From Sphaerochaeta pleomorpha str. Grapes (lineage in GTDB: Bacteria; Spirochaetota; Spirochaetia; Sphaerochaetales; Sphaerochaetaceae), in NCBI RefSeq assembly GCF_000236685.1, contig NC_016633.1, forward strand, positions 124,001-188,000: DNA of 64,000 nucleotides, in the 5' to 3' direction. Below, piece by piece: positions 34,340 through 42,880 of this stretch. Below the pieces are notes generated by a model. It made no database searches. It saw only the letters and a program-made list of their open reading frames with translations, and was not told the DNA's origin. A program made the translations under genes and the position numbers. The first letter of the stretch is position 1. The number at the start of each line of letters is the position of its first letter.

Positions 34340-35617
34340 TCACCCAATCATAAGCGAAAGGATTTCCCTGTCGGTATCTACCATTCCTTGACTCGCAATT
34401 TTCCCTATTCCGCTAATGGTTTCCTCAATGGTGTTTTTGACAATACCGTCTCCATTTGCAAAATATTCTTTTTTCATTGCTAGGTTATGTCCCAGTAGCG
34501 CCGCATCAATTGCGCTGGCAATTTTCGCAGCACAGGAAGGTTTTGCCCCGTCACATAACATGCCAGAGATATTAGCCAAAGTGTTTGTGATTGTCTCTTC
34601 AATCTGTTCAAGCGTTCCTCCAAATAGCCAAGTAATTGCAGCACCGGCACCGCTTGCAGCAGTAACAGCCCCGCAATAAGCAGATAATCTTCCAATGAAT
34701 GATTTCTGGTGAATTGCAATCAGATTACTGATAGCCAAGGCTCTGATCAATTTTTCGTTTCCAACTTTCAATTCCTTTGCATATTCCATAACTGGCAATG
34801 AAACAGTCAATCCTTGGTTTCCACTCCCACTGTTGATGACAACAGGAAAAGGACATCCGCTCATTCGAGCATCAGAACCGGCAGCAGCAACAGCTTTTGC
34901 CCTTACATTGATACTCTGTCCGTAGAATTCCAGCAAATTTTTTCCAATAGATACACCCCAATTATTTTTCAATCCCTCCATACTGATTGCATTGTTGAAA
35001 AAAATCTGCGGTTCAATGATTGGGCTTAGCTTTTCAATATCGATAGATTCTGCAAACTGGACGATTGAGCGAACGGAAAGAGGATTGCCGAAAGGAGTAT
35101 TTTCGGTACCTGGATGTTCCGAGAAGGGGATTTCGAAGAGAACGACATTATTACGCTTCATCAAAACTATATGGGTATGTTGATGGATTATCTCTACAAA
35201 TGCGGTATCTCGATCATTTTTTGCTATAACCTTAACATGGAGCTTGGCCGCTGTATTCAGAACAGAAACGGTAATAGGAATGGTTGCAAGCAAGGTTGAA
35301 GCATAAACAATATCTTCGTCGGTTATATCCGTTAGGACTTCCAACCCTTTTTCAGGGTGCCCCCCTGCAGTACCGATAGCAATAGCTGCCTGTATTCCTT
35401 TCAGCCCACCACTATTGGGGACAATCACACTTTTAACGTTTTTTATGATATTACCATTGCATGCAACTTCTATACTGGTTGGAATACCTCCCAGAATATC
35501 TTTTGCCTTTGCTGCAGCATACGCCAGGCAGATAGGTTCTGTGCAACCTAATGCAGGAACCAATTCTCTTCGTAAAATTTCTAAATATCCGATGCATTCA
35601 TTATTGGAGAGGGTCAT
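34340..35617 (-). CDS. CyuA-like L-cysteine desulfidase / serine dehydratase-alpha family protein
   Basis: Fe-S enzyme family that eliminates H2S from L-cysteine (or water from serine) to give pyruvate and ammonia. The 425-residue length is right. The cluster-type cysteines occur in ALGCTEPIC (C25) and GMLCDGAKPSCAAK near residue 350. GSGNQG and SGAGAAITWLFGG are other family-like segments. It is the last gene of an operon with a methyltransferase-like protein, a sugar-type ABC importer and a GntR regulator, so its substrate may derive from an imported sulfur or amino compound. Confidence 0.88.
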   Translation of the reverse strand: MTLSNNECIGYLEILRRELVPALGCTEPICLAYAAAKAKDILGGIPTSIEVACNGNIIKNVKSVIVPNSGGLKGIQAAIAIGTAGGHPEKGLEVLTDITDEDIVYASTLLATIPITVSVLNTAAKLHVKVIAKNDRDTAFVEIIHQHTHIVLMKRNNVVLFEIPFSEHPGTENTPFGNPLSVRSIVQFAESIDIEKLSPIIEPQIFFNNAISMEGLKNNWGVSIGKNLLEFYGQSINVRAKAVAAAGSDARMSGCPFPVVINSGSGNQGLTVSLPVMEYAKELKVGNEKLIRALAISNLIAIHQKSFIGRLSAYCGAVTAASGAGAAITWLFGGTLEQIEETITNTLANISGMLCDGAKPSCAAKIASAIDAALLGHNLAMKKEYFANGDGIVKNTIEETISGIGKIASQGMVDTDREILSLMIG

Positions 35618-35638
35618 TCTCTGTTCCTGATTTTTTGG

Positions 35639-36280
35639 TTATTGCATTTGGAAAGATGTTCTCATAGAAAGAATATCTTCTACCAGTATTTCTTTTGCAT
35701 TCTCAAGCGATTTTGACTTTATTGTCTCAATTAAACGTGCATGTTGTGATGCATCTGAAAGTTTCTGCTTATCCCAGGTAGTGTTAAAATAACGATACGC
35801 CCCCCTAGAGCAATAATTGAGATTTTGCTCTAGGGCTTTGTCCAGTAATGTGTTGTTTGCAAAACTGCATAGAAGCAAATGAAAACCCATATTCATTTTC
35901 CAATGTTTATCAACTTCATGGTCATATGTTATGGATTGTGAATGGATCACATTTTCTTCGAGTCGCTGAATATGCCGCTCGTCAAGTTTATAAAAACAAT
36001 GTTCAAGTGCTCCTAATTCAAGGATGCAACGCACTTCCAATCCTTCTTCCAATTGGCGTGGAGTAATTTGGGTGATCTGATAACCACACCTTGGGATGCT
36101 TTGTAACATCTCTTCCGAGCATAGTTGTACCAAAGCTTCCCTGATTGGTGCTTTGCTCACCCCATATTTTTCCATAAGTGAGCGTTCCGTCAGAATTTGA
36201 TTTGCGGGATATTTCCCTGTCAATATCTCATGATATTCCTGGTTGTGGATTCGTTCTTTCAGAGATTGTTTTTCTTCCAT
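35639..36280 (-). CDS. GntR-family transcriptional regulator (FCD-type)
   Basis: N-terminal winged helix-turn-helix (LTGKYPANQILTERSLMEK then YGVSKAPIREALVQLCSEEM, residues 20-58), followed by an all-helical C-terminal domain of the FadR/FCD kind (LEVRCILELGALEH). It is fifth in its operon, between permease and desulfidase genes. A perfect palindrome overlapping the operon promoter (40453-40471) is a good candidate operator. Confidence 0.87.
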   Translation of the reverse strand: MEEKQSLKERIHNQEYHEILTGKYPANQILTERSLMEKYGVSKAPIREALVQLCSEEMLQSIPRCGYQITQITPRQLEEGLEVRCILELGALEHCFYKLDERHIQRLEENVIHSQSITYDHEVDKHWKMNMGFHLLLCSFANNTLLDKALEQNLNYCSRGAYRYFNTTWDKQKLSDASQHARLIETIKSKSLENAKEILVEDILSMRTSFQMQ

Positions 36281-36296
36281 GTTGCTTTTTTACGGT

Positions 36297-37136
36297 CTAG
36301 CCTTTTACAGCCCCTGCCGTTAATCCTTCTTTATGAAAATATTGTAAAACCAAATAGGCAAAGATAACAGGAATAATTACAATTGTTGTTCCTGCTAGGA
36401 TTACTTGCCAAGGGGTTGAAAGTCCGTCACTTACCGGTAAAAGTGAAATGGAGACCATAAGGGTATATTTTGATGTTTTCCTAAGAAATAGCAAGGGCCA
36501 GAAGAAATCATTCCAACGTGCCACTATGGTAAGTGATGCCCAGGAAGCCAAAGCCGGTTTGATGACAGGGATGATTATCTTATAGAAAATTCCAAAGTCT
36601 TTACATCCATCAATCTTGGAAGCCTCAATTAACTCATCTGGAACATTTACAATGTATTGTCGCATATAGAAAATTCCAACTGCTGTGGCAATCCTTGGGA
36701 TTACCAATGCCCAGAGACTATTTATTAGATGGAGTTTCTTCATGATGATAAATTGGGGTATTGCACCAACCTCCGGTGGAATTAGCATCGTTGCAATGAC
36801 AAAATAGAAGAGGAAATCTCTTCCGGGGAATTTGTATTTTGCAAAAGAAAATCCAGCAAGTGCACAGAAAAAAACCGTTGTAAGAGTACCCATCGTCGTA
36901 GTGAATACACTATTGAAAATATTGGAAGCAATAGGTATCTGTCTAAATAGCCTTAGGTAATTGTCAAATGTTGGATGGTAAACCCGAATTGAATTGAGTC
37001 CACTAATACTTTCTGAGATGTCTTTAATGGAAATCAGACACATCCAGAATATGGGAAAAATGCTTATGAGGACAATGATAGATAAAATAAGATACACTAA
37101 GAATTGACCTGTTATTTGCTTGGTATGATTTTTCAT
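36297..37136 (-). CDS. Carbohydrate-type ABC transporter permease (MalG-like)
   Basis: 279 residues, about six helices. The coupling loop EASKIDGCKDFGIFYKIIIPVIKPA is described by its ends: EASKIDGC near residue 170 and IIPVIKPA 16 residues later. AGGAG lies before the ATG. It pairs with the MalF-like permease 18 bases upstream. Confidence 0.92.
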   Translation of the reverse strand: MKNHTKQITGQFLVYLILSIIVLISIFPIFWMCLISIKDISESISGLNSIRVYHPTFDNYLRLFRQIPIASNIFNSVFTTTMGTLTTVFFCALAGFSFAKYKFPGRDFLFYFVIATMLIPPEVGAIPQFIIMKKLHLINSLWALVIPRIATAVGIFYMRQYIVNVPDELIEASKIDGCKDFGIFYKIIIPVIKPALASWASLTIVARWNDFFWPLLFLRKTSKYTLMVSISLLPVSDGLSTPWQVILAGTTIVIIPVIFAYLVLQYFHKEGLTAGAVKG

Positions 37137-37154
37137 TAGATATGACTCCTGTGA

Positions 37155-38024
37155 TTATATTTCGCCTTGCTTTTTTCGAACAGCAAACTGTATCAGCGAA
37201 ATACCCAGCAAAATAAGAATAAGTATGCATCCGATAGCGGCAGAATAGCCCATTTTGAAAATGGTAAAACCATTCTGATACATGTACTGGAACAGGGAGG
37301 TGTTTGAGGTACCGGGGCCGGGTAGGATAAATGGCTCATTGAATATTTTCCAACTATCCACTGTAAGGGTGATAAAACAGAAAAATAGGATATTGCCGAG
37401 GGATGGCAGGGTGATATAGAAGAACTGCCTGAATATCCCTGCGCCATCAACGCGTGCTGCCTCATAATAATCTTTGCTGATATTCAACAAACCTGAAATG
37501 ATAATCATGGTAAACCAAGGAGTATTTCTCCAGATATTCAGAATAATTACTGGGATTTTGCTCATGGAAGTGCTTGTAAGCCAGGGAAGTCTTCCGAAGC
37601 CCAAGGCAACAAATATTTCATTGACCAATCCCACATTCTCGTCAAAGAGCATGCGAAAAATCAAGCCCATCGCAATGCCTGCACATACATTGGGCAGGAA
37701 GGTAATGGTTTTAAAAAAGGATTTTGATTTTAAATTGGACGAAGTTAGTAGCATCCCAATTAAGATGCTCAAGGATAGGATGAAAAATACAGCAGTTACC
37801 CAGTATACAATAGTATTGAGAAAAGCTTCGATGAACATCTGGTCCTTTAGCATCATCAGATAATTTTCTAATCCAACAACTGTAGGTTTTCCAATTCCAT
37901 TCCATTCAGTGAAACTGATAGCTATTGTCCAAATGGTAGGAATCAACTGAAACACTAAAAAAAGAATAAAGAACGGCAGAATAAACAAGTAGGGATATTT
38001 GTAGGTTTTTAAAGTCTTAAGCAT
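37155..38024 (-). CDS. Carbohydrate-type ABC transporter permease (MalF-like)
   Basis: 289 residues, six helices, with coupling loop EAARVDGAGIFRQFF near residue 190. The start at 38024 (MLKTLKTYKY) is chosen for the GAGG eight bases upstream; the frame is open five codons further. No ATPase gene is in this operon, as is common when a shared MsmK-type ATPase serves several importers. Confidence 0.92.
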   Translation of the reverse strand: MLKTLKTYKYPYLFILPFFILFLVFQLIPTIWTIAISFTEWNGIGKPTVVGLENYLMMLKDQMFIEAFLNTIVYWVTAVFFILSLSILIGMLLTSSNLKSKSFFKTITFLPNVCAGIAMGLIFRMLFDENVGLVNEIFVALGFGRLPWLTSTSMSKIPVIILNIWRNTPWFTMIIISGLLNISKDYYEAARVDGAGIFRQFFYITLPSLGNILFFCFITLTVDSWKIFNEPFILPGPGTSNTSLFQYMYQNGFTIFKMGYSAAIGCILILILLGISLIQFAVRKKQGEI

Positions 38025-38048
38025 ATTGATCCTCGCCAAATGGATATA

Positions 38049-38078
38049 GTTCCACCTGTTTTGAAAAACAGGTGGAAC
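38049..38078 (-). promoter_or_regulatory. Perfect intercistronic hairpin between binding protein and permease
   Basis: GTTCCACCTGTTT (38049-38061) and its complement (38066-38078) form a 13-bp stem with a 4-base loop. The placement matches the hairpin in the iron-type operon. It would favour high binding-protein expression over permease. Confidence 0.75.
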
Positions 38079-38090
38079 CTTTCTAAAGAA

Positions 38091-39446
38091 TTATTCGATT
38101 GTGGTTTTACCGATTCTTGCCTTGAGATTTTTATCTATATTGGCAATAGTAGCTTGCATTGTCTGGTTTCCTGCAACATATTTCTCAATTTCAACACTGA
38201 TGATAGTGTCAGCTTCAGCATCCTTTGGTGTTACTATCAGGTTGGCACTGGAATTGGCAAGACCTTTTCCCTCCATTTCCCTGAAACTTTGGCCACCATA
38301 GAATTCGCTGCTTTCTTTCCAGAATGGATCTTCTAGCATTTCAAGAGAAATTGGATTTGCATATGGTGCATTTTGTTCCACCATTGCATTTACCCACGCT
38401 TTCCTTGGTTCATTATCAAATTGAAAATCTTTCCACAATTTTTCTACCAAGGTAGTGTACTTACCATTAGGCTTATTGATTATTGCAAAATAGGATGCAA
38501 CCGGGGCTCCTGCCGTCCCAATTTCAGCAAAAACAGGAGCAGGCATTACACGCCATTGGCCTGAAGTTTCCGAAACATTTTTCCGGAGGAATTCATCCCA
38601 GAAAGCACCGATGTAAAAGGTTGCAACTTTGTTTTCTCTGATTGCATCATAGAGGGCAGGTTGCATTATAGCGCTTTTCAGTAATAAACCTTCACTATAA
38701 AGGGTATCCAGGGTATTAAGAGCCAGTTTTACACCAGGGTCAGAGCCGAATACGACATCTCCGTTTTCACCCCAGATCCTTGCATTGGCTTGTGGCATAA
38801 GACCCCTTCTTCCCCAGTATCTCCAAGTTCTGCTACCCGGATCAATGTAGGAAAGATAGACCAATCCATTGCTTTTTTCTTTCAGCTGTCTTCCGGCTTC
38901 AATATAGCCTTCCATGGTGCTCATCATTGCAGGGTCAACACCATACTTGTCAAAAATTTCCTGATTGAAGAAAAGCACCTGAGGTCTGACTGATTCTGGT
39001 AAAGCGAAAATTTTATCTTTGTAGATTGCGTCACCTGACGCACCATCGACCATTTGATCTTTTAATGAATTGGCCAACGCGGTTTCGTCTTTTACGATGC
39101 CACCTGCAGCGAGATCCTTGAGGTTGACCGGATCGATATACAGGGCATCCGGAAGGTCATCGTAGACACCAGCTAGATATGTCATGGTGACTTTCTCCCG
39201 AGAATCTGCCGCTCCCTGGGTCTGGACAATTTCAATCTTTACTTCTGGTGCAATGTCACGATTCCTTTCGAGCCATGCATCATAGTATTGCTGGAGGTAT
39301 TGAGGTTGCCCATATCCATAGATAACCACAGTGCCTGCTGGATAGACTGTACCTGTTGATGATACAGTAGCCTCCTTTGCTCCCCCGGCATACGCCGACA
39401 ACATTACCATGCTCAGAAAAATCACAATAGTTGCTTTTTTCATCAT
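38091..39446 (-). CDS. ABC transporter extracellular substrate-binding protein (sugar type)
   Basis: About 451 residues from ATG 39446 (tandem ATGs; GAGGAA upstream). The signal peptide (MKKATIVIFLSMVMLSAYA) is followed by GGAKEAT. The fold is that of family-1 solute-binding proteins: VVIYGYGQPQYLQQYYDAWLER (first 11 and next 11 residues of the first strand-helix unit), DLPDALYIDPVNLKDLAAGG and KLWKDFQFDNEPRKAW. The ligand is unknown; family-1 ligands include sugars, glycosides and polyols. Confidence 0.87.
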   Translation of the reverse strand: MMKKATIVIFLSMVMLSAYAGGAKEATVSSTGTVYPAGTVVIYGYGQPQYLQQYYDAWLERNRDIAPEVKIEIVQTQGAADSREKVTMTYLAGVYDDLPDALYIDPVNLKDLAAGGIVKDETALANSLKDQMVDGASGDAIYKDKIFALPESVRPQVLFFNQEIFDKYGVDPAMMSTMEGYIEAGRQLKEKSNGLVYLSYIDPGSRTWRYWGRRGLMPQANARIWGENGDVVFGSDPGVKLALNTLDTLYSEGLLLKSAIMQPALYDAIRENKVATFYIGAFWDEFLRKNVSETSGQWRVMPAPVFAEIGTAGAPVASYFAIINKPNGKYTTLVEKLWKDFQFDNEPRKAWVNAMVEQNAPYANPISLEMLEDPFWKESSEFYGGQSFREMEGKGLANSSANLIVTPKDAEADTIISVEIEKYVAGNQTMQATIANIDKNLKARIGKTTIE

Positions 39447-39472
39447 ACGTAGTTTCCTCTTTTTGTACATAT

Positions 39473-40432
39473 TTATCGAGTAGCCATTACAGCTTGCTTG
39501 ATTCTTTGATAGGGAATTTCGGTTGGAAGCGTGCAATCAGCCCCAAGGATGAATTTTTTCTTTCCGAATTCATTGAGTATTTTGGCGACCGAACTCTTCA
39601 GGTCCTCTTCAGAGGAGCCGACTAGGGCTCCTGTCCTGTTTGCGAGTCCTCCCATTATAGTAGCCTCTGGAAAAAGTTCTCGTCCTTTGCTGAGAGGAAA
39701 ATCTGTTTCATAAACGCCCCAGTTGGCAACATCAATCAGACTTCCATAGGAAGCATATCGATCCATAGCAAGGTTTTCCTTGCACATATGGAGAAAATTC
39801 TTACCCCCATTGTTTTTGCATACTGACAGAATTTGTTTGTCAAAAGGTGCTATGGCCATTGCAAACTCCTCGTCTGTCATGAAATGCTTTTCTGCCCCTA
39901 ATGCAGCATAGTAAATGCCATCGACACCAGCCTTGATAATCTGTTCGGTAAGCAGACACATTGCATCGGTAATTCTCTTGCAGGCATCTAAAAATGGTGT
40001 TGGATTTTCTCTCAGGTGAGCAACATGCAGTTCTCTCGTTGGTATATAGCCGTACCGGGATTCAATTGGATGAATACTTGAAGCGCATACCCCATGGATT
40101 GTCCCCAGCGTAAACGTATTTTCAGGATTCTTGTCAAGGATTTGCTTTACAAAATCGACCTGATCACTCAGAAAGGCATCTTTCATAGAATAGGATGGGA
40201 TTTTTTTCCAGTCATTTGGAGTTTTAATATCGCCGACATCTGGAATAAGATTCTCGTTCATGATTTTCATTATGTCTACTTCGGTTTCCCGATAAAAATC
40301 AAGGTGGGCTTTTACCCCCGGTTTTCCTTTTGCAACTGCTTTTGGAAAATGGAGTGAAAAGCTAGCCGGTACAAAATCGACATCTTTTCCATCTATCGAA
40401 GCTAACACCCGTTCTCTTTTATTCATGATCAA
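39473..40432 (-). CDS. UroD-superfamily protein with zinc methyltransferase motif
   Basis: TIM-barrel protein of 319 residues. It carries H215-x-C217 (NFLHMCKEN) and C300 (ILGADCTLPTEIP), the H-x-C-x(n)-C zinc-ligand pattern of MtaA/MtbA/MtgA-type enzymes that move methyl groups between corrinoid proteins and thiols or tetrahydrofolate. The N-terminal RQAGRY-like segment of true uroporphyrinogen decarboxylase is absent and there are no haem genes nearby. First gene of the operon. No corrinoid protein gene is seen in the window, so the methyl donor is unknown. MNKRER at 40426 is an alternative start. Confidence 0.8.
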   Translation of the reverse strand: MIMNKRERVLASIDGKDVDFVPASFSLHFPKAVAKGKPGVKAHLDFYRETEVDIMKIMNENLIPDVGDIKTPNDWKKIPSYSMKDAFLSDQVDFVKQILDKNPENTFTLGTIHGVCASSIHPIESRYGYIPTRELHVAHLRENPTPFLDACKRITDAMCLLTEQIIKAGVDGIYYAALGAEKHFMTDEEFAMAIAPFDKQILSVCKNNGGKNFLHMCKENLAMDRYASYGSLIDVANWGVYETDFPLSKGRELFPEATIMGGLANRTGALVGSSEEDLKSSVAKILNEFGKKKFILGADCTLPTEIPYQRIKQAVMATR

Positions 40433-40452
40433 TGCTCACTTTTTGTTTTAAA

Positions 40453-40493
40453 ATATGATTACTAATCATATCAGTGGTAAGCTTAAATAGCAA
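40453..40493 (-). promoter_or_regulatory. Promoter with overlapping palindromic operator
   Basis: On the minus strand, -35 TTGCTA (40493-40488), a 17-base spacer and -10 TATGAT (40470-40465). The -10 lies inside a perfect 19-base palindrome, ATATGATTA-C-TAATCATAT on the plus strand (40453-40471). A bound dimer would block polymerase. The GntR-family protein of the same operon is the natural candidate. Confidence 0.65.
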
Positions 40494-41114: not shown

Positions 41115-42695
41115 TTATTCGGCGCCTTTAGGCAAGACGAAATGCAAGGACTCTGATAGGAGTGTCTGCATTTTCGTAGGTGCCGAATAGAGAATTCTTG
41201 AGGATTCCGGCAAAGAAACCCTAAAATATGAGTCCATCGCGTCTAGAACATCATGAAAAGATGCAAAAGAGGCAAGGCGATCATCTTTCTGTATGGATAG
41301 ATCAAGATTTGACGAAAGAATTAATGCAAGGAATTGGATAAAAAGACGAACGGAGAATATTTGGGGGTCGTTAATCTGCAGAAGCTTGCAATCGATTTCA
41401 TTTTTCAAATTTTCAAAATGATTCTCAAGTTGGTTCCTTCTGCCAAATTGATCCAAGACCGTTTTGGAATCATCCTCGCAATTTGTTTGTATAGCCCAGA
41501 AACCAGCATTTGAAAGGAAGAAAAGGTGCTTTGGGTCAACTTTTCTGGCAACCTTTCTTGACCCTCCAGGATTTTTACGTAGTTCGAAATACCGGTCGTA
41601 GAGTTGGCTGTGTTCCTCGAAAAGATTGTTGTCAATTAATTCTGTCTGACAGTTTGCAAGCAGTCCTTCCAGGTTTCTTTCCTGCTCCTTCCTCCAGAAA
41701 GGATCAAAGAAAACATGGATAGTGCTTTGCTTATCATCTGAGGGGTATGCAGTATAGCGAATGGTTTCCACACGGTGGTCGAAAAAGGGTTCTGTGGTGT
41801 CAAGCTGCTTTCTAAAATCCTCGATCAGGCGATTTTGCCAAGAAATCCTGGAAGGGATCCCTATCATGAAATCAAATCCATGTTCCATAAGCAGCGCAAT
41901 GCTGGTTTGGGTATATAAAATACGATTAAGGACAAGCGAGCATGGAACATGCCTGTAAGCACCTACCTTGGAAAGAACAGTCTCTGCGTCTTGAGCAATC
42001 CGGAGGTTTCCCGCTAATGGAAGATAGGTAAGGGGGATTCCTGATTTTTTATCGCAGGCTATTGCAAGGTGTATCTGTTCAAGCGCATCGCGATCCCTAT
42101 TGTTGCCGTAATAGAGGAAGGGGTTGTGCCTGCTGTAGGATGCTGCGCTTGTAATGACATAGATATACTGCTGCGATATCTGCATGGTTTTAACCCAATT
42201 CTCGAAAAATCGCTCCAGGGAAGCCCTTTCGATGGATGCAAGAAATTCGACAATTTGGCCTGGCTGTGAAAGCTCAGTCCCAATCCCGTGGTGGTCGAGC
42301 CATTTTCCGGCTTTGCCCAATGGCTCAGTTTCACAGGTGCAATAATAAGCCAAGGCAAGGAGTTTTCGTGCGTTTGCGTTGCCGAAGGAAGTCTTTAGGA
42401 CTTTTTCGAGTTTCAGGCTTTTTGCCATATGATCCAATACAAGAATCTGTCCTATTGGGTGTATGGCAAACGTAGGTTCTTCTTGGACCGGTGACTTTTT
42501 CGCTTTGGATGCCATGTATTTTTCATTGAACACCTGCTTGCCGGTTTTTGTGTCGATCTTACCGATGCACACTCGTTTGTGTCTGGTCTGTTGTTTTTCA
42601 AAATTCCAATAAAACTGGTCATGATAGAGATAGGTAACCCCATTTTTTTTGTTTTTCACTGGTATTATCCGGGGTTTTGAAAATATTTTTTCCAT
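41115..42695 (-). CDS. IS4/IS1634-type transposase-like protein, apparently lacking catalytic aspartates
   Basis: 526 residues from MEKIFSKPRI (42695). The N-terminus (KNGVTYLYHDQFYWNFEK, QTRHKRVCIGKID) and central fold match a large IS4/IS1634-type transposase group. At the first catalytic position, usually Y-D-T/I-T-S, it reads YVITSAASYS (Val codon GTC, 42156-42158). At the second, usually D-R-G-F-Y, it reads LVLNRILYT (Asn codon AAT, 41925-41927). The glutamate is kept (QLENHFENLKNEID). The frame is intact. No terminal inverted repeats or target duplication were found by eye. It may be a recently inactivated or domesticated copy. Confidence 0.8.
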   Translation of the reverse strand: MEKIFSKPRIIPVKNKKNGVTYLYHDQFYWNFEKQQTRHKRVCIGKIDTKTGKQVFNEKYMASKAKKSPVQEEPTFAIHPIGQILVLDHMAKSLKLEKVLKTSFGNANARKLLALAYYCTCETEPLGKAGKWLDHHGIGTELSQPGQIVEFLASIERASLERFFENWVKTMQISQQYIYVITSAASYSRHNPFLYYGNNRDRDALEQIHLAIACDKKSGIPLTYLPLAGNLRIAQDAETVLSKVGAYRHVPCSLVLNRILYTQTSIALLMEHGFDFMIGIPSRISWQNRLIEDFRKQLDTTEPFFDHRVETIRYTAYPSDDKQSTIHVFFDPFWRKEQERNLEGLLANCQTELIDNNLFEEHSQLYDRYFELRKNPGGSRKVARKVDPKHLFFLSNAGFWAIQTNCEDDSKTVLDQFGRRNQLENHFENLKNEIDCKLLQINDPQIFSVRLFIQFLALILSSNLDLSIQKDDRLASFASFHDVLDAMDSYFRVSLPESSRILYSAPTKMQTLLSESLHFVLPKGAE

Positions 42696-42699
42696 GTTA

Positions 42700-42880
42700 T
42701 AAATTGTAACAAAAAAACAGGGTAAATGCAATATTAATATTATATATTATAAAATGATAAATAAAAATTATGTAGTATTTCAAAATTTAATTAAAAAGAA
42801 ATAATTCCTTATAAGAAATAGAAAAAAGAAAAATAACTTGTAATATAATTATATATAATGTTACAATGATAGAAACCTAC
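42700..42880. other. Very AT-rich intergenic block
   Basis: About 180 bases dominated by A and T between the divergent transposase-like and amino-acid binding-protein genes. It contains several TATAAT-like strings (for example 42854-42859) but no convincing -35. It could hold divergent promoters, a bent-DNA site or the remnant of an insertion edge. Confidence 0.5.

Follow-up and report, generated by a model that had tools for sequence, protein, structure and literature searches.

A conserved operon joining a UroD-superfamily protein with a predicted zinc site, a sugar-type importer and a CyuA homolog in Sphaerochaeta pleomorpha

We analyzed a 64,000-nucleotide stretch of the Sphaerochaeta pleomorpha str. 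Grapes genome (contig NC_016633.1, positions 124,001 to 188,000; hereafter, the window) and found on its minus strand, at 34340-40493, six tandem genes that we are highly confident form a genuine conserved functional module. In transcription order, they encode a UroD-like protein, a binding protein, permeases A and B, a GntR/FCD regulator, and a homolog of the L-cysteine desulfidase CyuA, with gaps of 26, 66, 18, 16, and 21 bases when ATG starts are used (Table 1). We tentatively propose that this GntR-controlled module would use an external cysteine derivative bearing an S-substituent: the ABC importer would take up the derivative, free in the window type of operon, with a MalK-type ATPase from another locus supplying the energy; the UroD-like enzyme would bind its sulfur at a zinc held by His-Cys-Cys ligands and make or break a carbon-sulfur bond without a corrinoid protein, yielding cysteine; and the CyuA homolog would convert cysteine to pyruvate, ammonia, and sulfide. 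Opp-type sister operons would reach the same point from small peptides, by way of an oligopeptide importer and PepV/PepT-type peptidases.

Table 1. Genes and candidate control elements of the operon (window positions)
Feature	Position	Strand	Evidence
UroD-superfamily protein, 317 aa	39473..40426	-	Pfam URO-D, AF2 model, Foldseek, ligand conservation
Lipoprotein-like solute-binding protein, 451 aa	38091..39446	-	Match to solved sugar-type binding proteins
Permease A, UgpA/MalF-like	37155..38024	-	BPD_transp_1; NCBIfam UgpA/GlcT-like below equivalog cut-off
Permease B, UgpE/MalG-like	36297..37136	-	BPD_transp_1; NCBIfam UgpE-like below equivalog cut-off
GntR/FCD transcriptional regulator	35639..36280	-	Pfam GntR 3.5e-13, FCD 4.3e-13
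CyuA-type [4Fe-4S] L-cysteine desulfidase homolog, 425 aa	34340..35617	-	SDH_alpha 4.9e-65, above cut-off
Perfect palindrome ATATGATTA-C-TAATCATAT, putative operator for the GntR/FCD regulator	40453..40471	.	9+1+9 inverted repeat
Promoter-like site TTGCTA-17-TATGAT, TG before -10, overlapping the palindrome	40465..40493	-	Weak evidence
14-bp stem-loop between binding-protein and permease genes	38044..38088	-	Folded stretch -23.7 kcal/mol

Conservation and putative control of the operon

A preliminary description of this DNA, made from the letters alone, had reported six leftward genes with gaps of 15-70 bases; all six are present, with gaps of 16-66 bases. It had also named the lack of a conserved neighborhood as grounds for abandoning its reading, and our genome search instead found the grouping recurring in Spirochaetota and Bacillota, with recognizable forms in other spirochaetes and in many Clostridia. 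A UroD-like relative occurs in 33 of the 139 genomes of the order, and a scan of named genomes yielded 170 relatives; the 79 loci kept span both phyla, and carriers include Hungatella effluvii, Faecalicatena orotica, Clostridium asparagiforme, C. citroniae, Enterocloster bolteae, and Treponema socranskii. Clustering of neighboring genes separated (a) UroD, a binding protein, and two permeases, often with GntR and CyuA, which is the window type; (b) UroD, an Opp-type importer, an M20 dipeptidase, and GntR, joined in some cases by CyuA; (c) UroD, a family-less binding-protein-like gene, an M20 dipeptidase, and CyuA; and (d) UroD, hydantoinase A/B, an Opp importer, and an M24 peptidase. Two variants swap the sugar-type importer for Opp and PepV/PepT peptidases, or for hydantoinase-like genes and an M24 peptidase; the exact gene order of the window is kept in a Clostridiales metagenome-assembled genome (L076). 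Among 116 distinct UroD copies, the same operon holds a sugar-type binding protein in 46 cases and CyuA in 40. A CyuA gene lies nearby in 47 of the 116, and in 33 of the 65 copies flanked on each side by 6 kb or more of sequence. The chance expectation for a 20-kb stretch is roughly 3%, given 6 SDH_alpha genes in the 3.59-Mb, single-contig host genome. In some loci, the UroD and CyuA genes are directly adjacent.

With its core TGATANTATCA used for scoring, the palindrome CTGATANTATCAG was found in the ~220 bases preceding UroD at 23 of 107 loci compared with 0.5% of random windows of equal length, and in 43 of the 107 compared with 2.4% when one mismatch is allowed. It precedes the sugar-importer (a), Opp (b), and hydantoinase (d) operon types, and does so in both phyla. 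A related, nonidentical palindrome, ATATGATTA-C-TAATCATAT, stands just 5' of the UroD-like gene of the window; it has one match in the window, where 0.06 would be expected by chance with at most three mismatches allowed. The regulator has GntR DNA-binding and FCD domains, both above cut-off, and we infer that it binds the palindrome as its operator. The single promoter assumed in the preliminary description is plausible in that a promoter-like site overlaps this palindrome, and unproven in that such sites are not commoner in the operon region than in shuffled sequence. The stem-loop that follows the binding-protein gene is probably an expression-ratio element.

Several features of the surroundings were also noted. 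An IS1634-family transposase gene (41115-42731, minus strand) lies directly upstream of the operon, the G+C content of the operon is 40.8% versus 44.4% for the window, and the UroD-like gene is patchy inside the genus; together, these suggest that the operon was gained by transfer. In T. socranskii (L080:3938-13165), the UroD-importer genes sit inside an apparent glycerol kinase/glycerol-3-phosphate dehydrogenase operon. At two loci (L141:17867-19535 and L145:17855-19548), a VanX-like D,D-dipeptidase gene and a 2-hydroxyacid-dehydrogenase-like gene follow an Opp-type UroD operon, and at three others (L095, L106, and L118), UroD is followed by hydantoinase A/B genes like those for caprolactamase or acetophenone carboxylase subunits, an Opp importer, and an M24 peptidase. 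Three sister operons have hydantoinase-like genes similar to the acetophenone carboxylase family, and an epsilon subunit of that enzyme appeared in the fold search; a link was considered and rejected, as nothing connects the carboxylase family to the window operon.

Predicted zinc ligands, desulfidase residues, and the importer

The UroD-like protein matches Pfam URO-D above cut-off (1.7e-14, with the open reading frame [ORF] taken from a TTG start). Its AlphaFold2 (AF2) model, with a mean predicted local distance difference test score (pLDDT) of 93.6, found Methanosarcina mazei MtaA as its best Foldseek match (4ay7, 2.2e-14), followed by UroD and MetE structures; VIA Z values of 28-30 over ~300 residues, at a root mean square deviation of ~2.6, identify the fold as a UroD-type TIM-barrel. 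A single-sequence search of the PDB returned no relative, and it was the profile and fold searches that gave them. The zinc pattern noted in the preliminary description, H215-x-C217 and C300, corresponds to H213, C215, and C298 when counted from the ATG. These predicted ligands are invariant in 19 homologs and essentially so across 115 sequences (H213, 115/115; C215, 114/115; C298, 115/115), and in a profile alignment H213-x-C215 falls on the LHiC motif of Methanosarcina MtaA. According to Kountz and Balskus (PMC10418091), His-Cys-Cys marks the S/Se-type enzymes of the UroD superfamily; in O-type enzymes, carboxylates or noncoordinating residues replace one or both cysteines. Because His-Cys-Cys is the S/Se type, the UroD-like enzyme most likely binds sulfur at its predicted zinc. 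A role in haem synthesis was considered and set aside on the zinc pattern, with the HemE catalytic Asp left unmapped: the genome has no other URO-D gene, and this one carries the thiol-type pattern.

The last gene had been described as resembling L-cysteine desulfidase, and its residues agree with that assignment. The predicted protein aligns over its length with the solved CyuA of M. maripaludis (9he0, 3e-28), in which Cys23, Glu25, Cys287, Cys329, and Cys336 have been shown to be important (PMC12647591). Every one is kept: the equivalents are C25 and E27 (GCTE motif), predicted to be catalytic, and the putative cluster ligands C315, C355, and C362, all five unchanged across 46 homologs, E. 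coli CyuA among them. Against the L-serine dehydratase alpha model TIGR00718, the homolog scores 20.9 bits, far below the equivalog cut-off of 243.2. In a tree, UroD-linked CyuAs are mixed among unlinked paralogs. This pattern points to recruitment on several occasions and so adds weight to the functional link.

It might be argued that the genes form a loose metabolic grouping, in which CyuA draws pyruvate and ammonia from any cysteine freed as peptides or amino acids are used, while a different, unrelated part of the imported compound is the target of the UroD-like protein. The host genome does have six SDH_alpha genes, of which the other five adjoin varied genes, and many UroD copies have no CyuA nearby; the fact that CyuA seems to have joined UroD operons more than once in both phyla, together with the adjacent UroD-CyuA pairs, speaks against such a grouping, and we consider it rather unlikely. 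Among the other homologs in the host genome, two (~1.88-1.90 Mb; L161:6853-14501 and L159) lie beside dihydroxyacetone-kinase-like genes and also adjoin branched-chain-type ABC importers; a small protein encoded between them resembles PF14196 (ATC_hydrolase), which is found near UroD in Clostridia. A divergent homolog (L162:2356-9064) lies near molybdenum hydroxylase-like genes for three subunits.

The importer is of the sugar type (CUT1), with a binding protein, two MalFG/UgpAE-like permeases, and an ATPase presumably supplied in trans. The binding protein matches solved sugar-type binding proteins (1.2e-9) and has no Pfam match, both permeases match BPD_transp_1 above cut-off, and the operon has no ATPase gene; two MalK-type ATPases bearing OB_MalK are encoded elsewhere in the host genome.

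Corrinoid absence and the substrate class

As the preliminary description had stated, no corrinoid protein is encoded nearby: there is none in the operon, and no ORF in 120 UroD loci carries a corrinoid-binding motif, a search in which a MetH-like protein was detected as a positive control. Among 30 genomes with strong UroD matches, 25 had neither PF02607 nor PF02310, and 24 of these also lacked methylenetetrahydrofolate reductase (MTHFR); MetE was absent from the same 24. Ten of the 24 reach a completeness of 90% or more, and as these carriers are mostly drafts, in any one of which a gene may have been missed, the weight lies on the genus-wide pattern. Because B12-binding domains, MTHFR, and MetE are all missing from these carriers, it is unlikely that corrinoid or methyl-folate generally serves as the acceptor, and the methyl transfer to corrinoid or folate that the preliminary description associated with the zinc pattern is not supported as a rule. 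We likewise rejected, for the sister genomes, a corrinoid partner nearby or in trans as a general rule and a link to MTHFR or MetE. Most simply, the reaction would require no corrinoid and no methyl-folate.

The host genome itself encodes MTHFR and, as its only strong corrinoid-binding protein, a MetH-like protein; it has no Meth_synt_2 (PF01717) match. The UroD-like enzyme could accordingly be imagined to carry out corrinoid-dependent S-demethylation in trans, with the methyl group accepted by a corrinoid protein from another locus, in the manner of MtsA and the mlp clusters. Its His-Cys-Cys site is that of the soluble coenzyme M methyltransferases (SCMTs) (PMC10418091), MtaA is its best Foldseek match, and the MetH-like protein could serve as partner; the corrinoid-free carriers of the same family and the 120 loci argue the other way, and we regard this explanation as very improbable. 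Alternatively, the enzyme could be a corrinoid-independent thiol methyltransferase, in which an imported betaine- or sulfonium-like donor methylates homocysteine or another thiol; the outcome would be methionine salvage, with CyuA merely recycling sulfur. The fold is common to MetE (VIA Z ~20), and an extra methionine route would be useful to the 24 carriers without MTHFR, MetE, and B12-binding domains (hence MetH). However, the host genome has both the MetH-like protein and MTHFR, host-associated spirochaetes may import methionine, and the dipeptidases, the sugar-type importer, and CyuA would be left unexplained; we therefore find a thiol methyltransferase improbable.

Sister operons encode a Sapep/PepV-type dipeptidase, PepT, an M24 peptidase, and hydantoinase-like proteins, and a PF14196 (ATC_hydrolase) gene is the immediate neighbor of UroD at one locus and is close to it at two others; the namesake of this family acts on a cysteine precursor. 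Since these peptidases and ATC_hydrolase stand alongside CyuA and a thiol-type zinc site, the evidence favors a cysteine derivative as the substrate. AzlC/AzlD-like amino-acid exporter genes were seen in the UroD operon at L097, L108, and L130, hinting at an exported amino-acid product.

Several observations weigh against the proposed use of a cysteine derivative. The importer resembles sugar importers; sulfatase, GH88, GH130, and GlcNAc 2-epimerase genes neighbor some sister loci; about half of the UroD copies with ample context have no nearby CyuA; and a single clade of UroD-linked CyuAs, which we looked for, was not seen in the tree, where intermixing was found instead. In addition, a thioether is a poor methyl donor without Co(I), and a corrinoid-free S-methyl substrate would be chemically awkward. 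The sugar-related points raise the possibility that a sugar-linked amino acid, either glycated or a cysteine-sugar thiazolidine, is imported and split by the UroD-like enzyme, with CyuA handling the cysteine or serine part. The sugar-type importer would fit, as would the genes for GH130, GlcNAc 2-epimerase, FGGY kinase, GH88, and sulfatase that some sister operons contain or adjoin. Such sugar genes occur in few loci, though, peptidases being the commoner extra genes, and cleavage of glycated amino acid or thiazolidine bonds is not known for any UroD-superfamily enzyme; it is quite unlikely that the substrate is of this kind, and a sugar-cysteine adduct may nevertheless reconcile the sugar-type importer with the cysteine clues.

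Returning to the cysteine-derivative proposal, import would be expected from the importer family, zinc-sulfur binding from the conserved ligands, corrinoid-free carbon-sulfur chemistry from the absence of corrinoid proteins in carriers, and cleavage of cysteine to pyruvate, ammonia, and sulfide from the residues of the CyuA homolog. Computation establishes the genes and their conserved linkage, the zinc and iron-sulfur residues, the operator-like palindrome in common, and the lack of corrinoid and methyl-folate proteins in many carriers; the kind of substrate, the chemistry at zinc, and the sequence of steps are inferred. The whole chain, comprising import, a corrinoid-free zinc step, cysteine desulfuration, and GntR control, is in our view less likely than not. 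It is doubtful that the enzyme pair works in gut anaerobes exactly as outlined, with a corrinoid- and folate-free UroD-superfamily zinc enzyme removing or transferring the S-substituent of a cysteine derivative and feeding an iron-sulfur desulfidase under a conserved regulator.

Relation to described systems

Each of these families is known; for the combination, its spread, the shared operator-like palindrome, and the corrinoid-free setting, the literature searched gave no description. No description joining uroporphyrinogen decarboxylase and desulfidase was found in a search that left most subscription journals outside its reach, and nothing specific was found on S-methylcysteine. If the proposal is correct, these operons would allow substituted cysteine to be converted into sulfide and pyruvate without B12, and would be a widespread sulfide source in gut anaerobes (relatives of the UroD-like gene are present in Hungatella, Enterocloster, Faecalicatena, and treponemes) whose activity is masked by the family-level labels "uroporphyrinogen decarboxylase" and "serine dehydratase alpha chain." It would also extend a superfamily known mainly for B12-linked methyl transfer to carbon-sulfur chemistry that needs no corrinoid, and would account for the retention of UroD-like genes in organisms that lack B12 enzymes.

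The closest described bacterial setting is that of the type 1 mlp clusters, in which UroD-superfamily His-Cys-Cys proteins of anaerobes have been suggested to use methyl-sulfur or methyl-selenium compounds as substrates (PMC10418091). Like these clusters, the window operon has a His-Cys-Cys UroD protein and a link to sulfur metabolism; unlike them, it carries no corrinoid protein, and many carriers have none genome-wide. An importer, a GntR regulator, and CyuA are present instead, with peptidases in the sister operons. Of the corrinoid protein and reductive activase that define type 1 mlp clusters, the former is absent, and no search was aimed at the latter. The SCMTs MtaA, MtbA, and MtsA have the zinc ligand pattern and fold in common with the UroD-like protein (MtaA 4ay7, VIA Z 29.5), but identity to M. 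mazei MtaA is 16% over 294 aligned residues, short of the >25% identity to a characterized SCMT expected of Mlp proteins (M. mazei MtaA being the only SCMT compared), and the window operon supplies no corrinoid partner.

MetE and epoxyalkane:coenzyme M transferase are zinc-thiolate enzymes that need no corrinoid. Both are listed in the UroD superfamily (PMC10418091), yet the UroD-like protein is only ~10-16% identical to MetE, and the two enzymes have other gene partners. The staphylococcal Cys-Gly-3M3SH dipeptidase belongs to the same Sapep/PepV family as the dipeptidase of the Opp-type sister operons; the latter scores 162 bits against the Cys-Gly-3M3SH exception model, whose cut-off is 1025, and the window operon has no such gene. 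Finally, the catalytic and cluster residues of the window CyuA homolog are common to E. coli CyuA (PMC9040844) and M. maripaludis CyuA (PMC12647591), and in E. coli (cyuPA), as in the window, the gene shares an operon with an importer; whereas the E. coli enzyme is accompanied by the CyuP importer, the window homolog is joined to a UroD-like protein with a predicted zinc site and an ABC importer.

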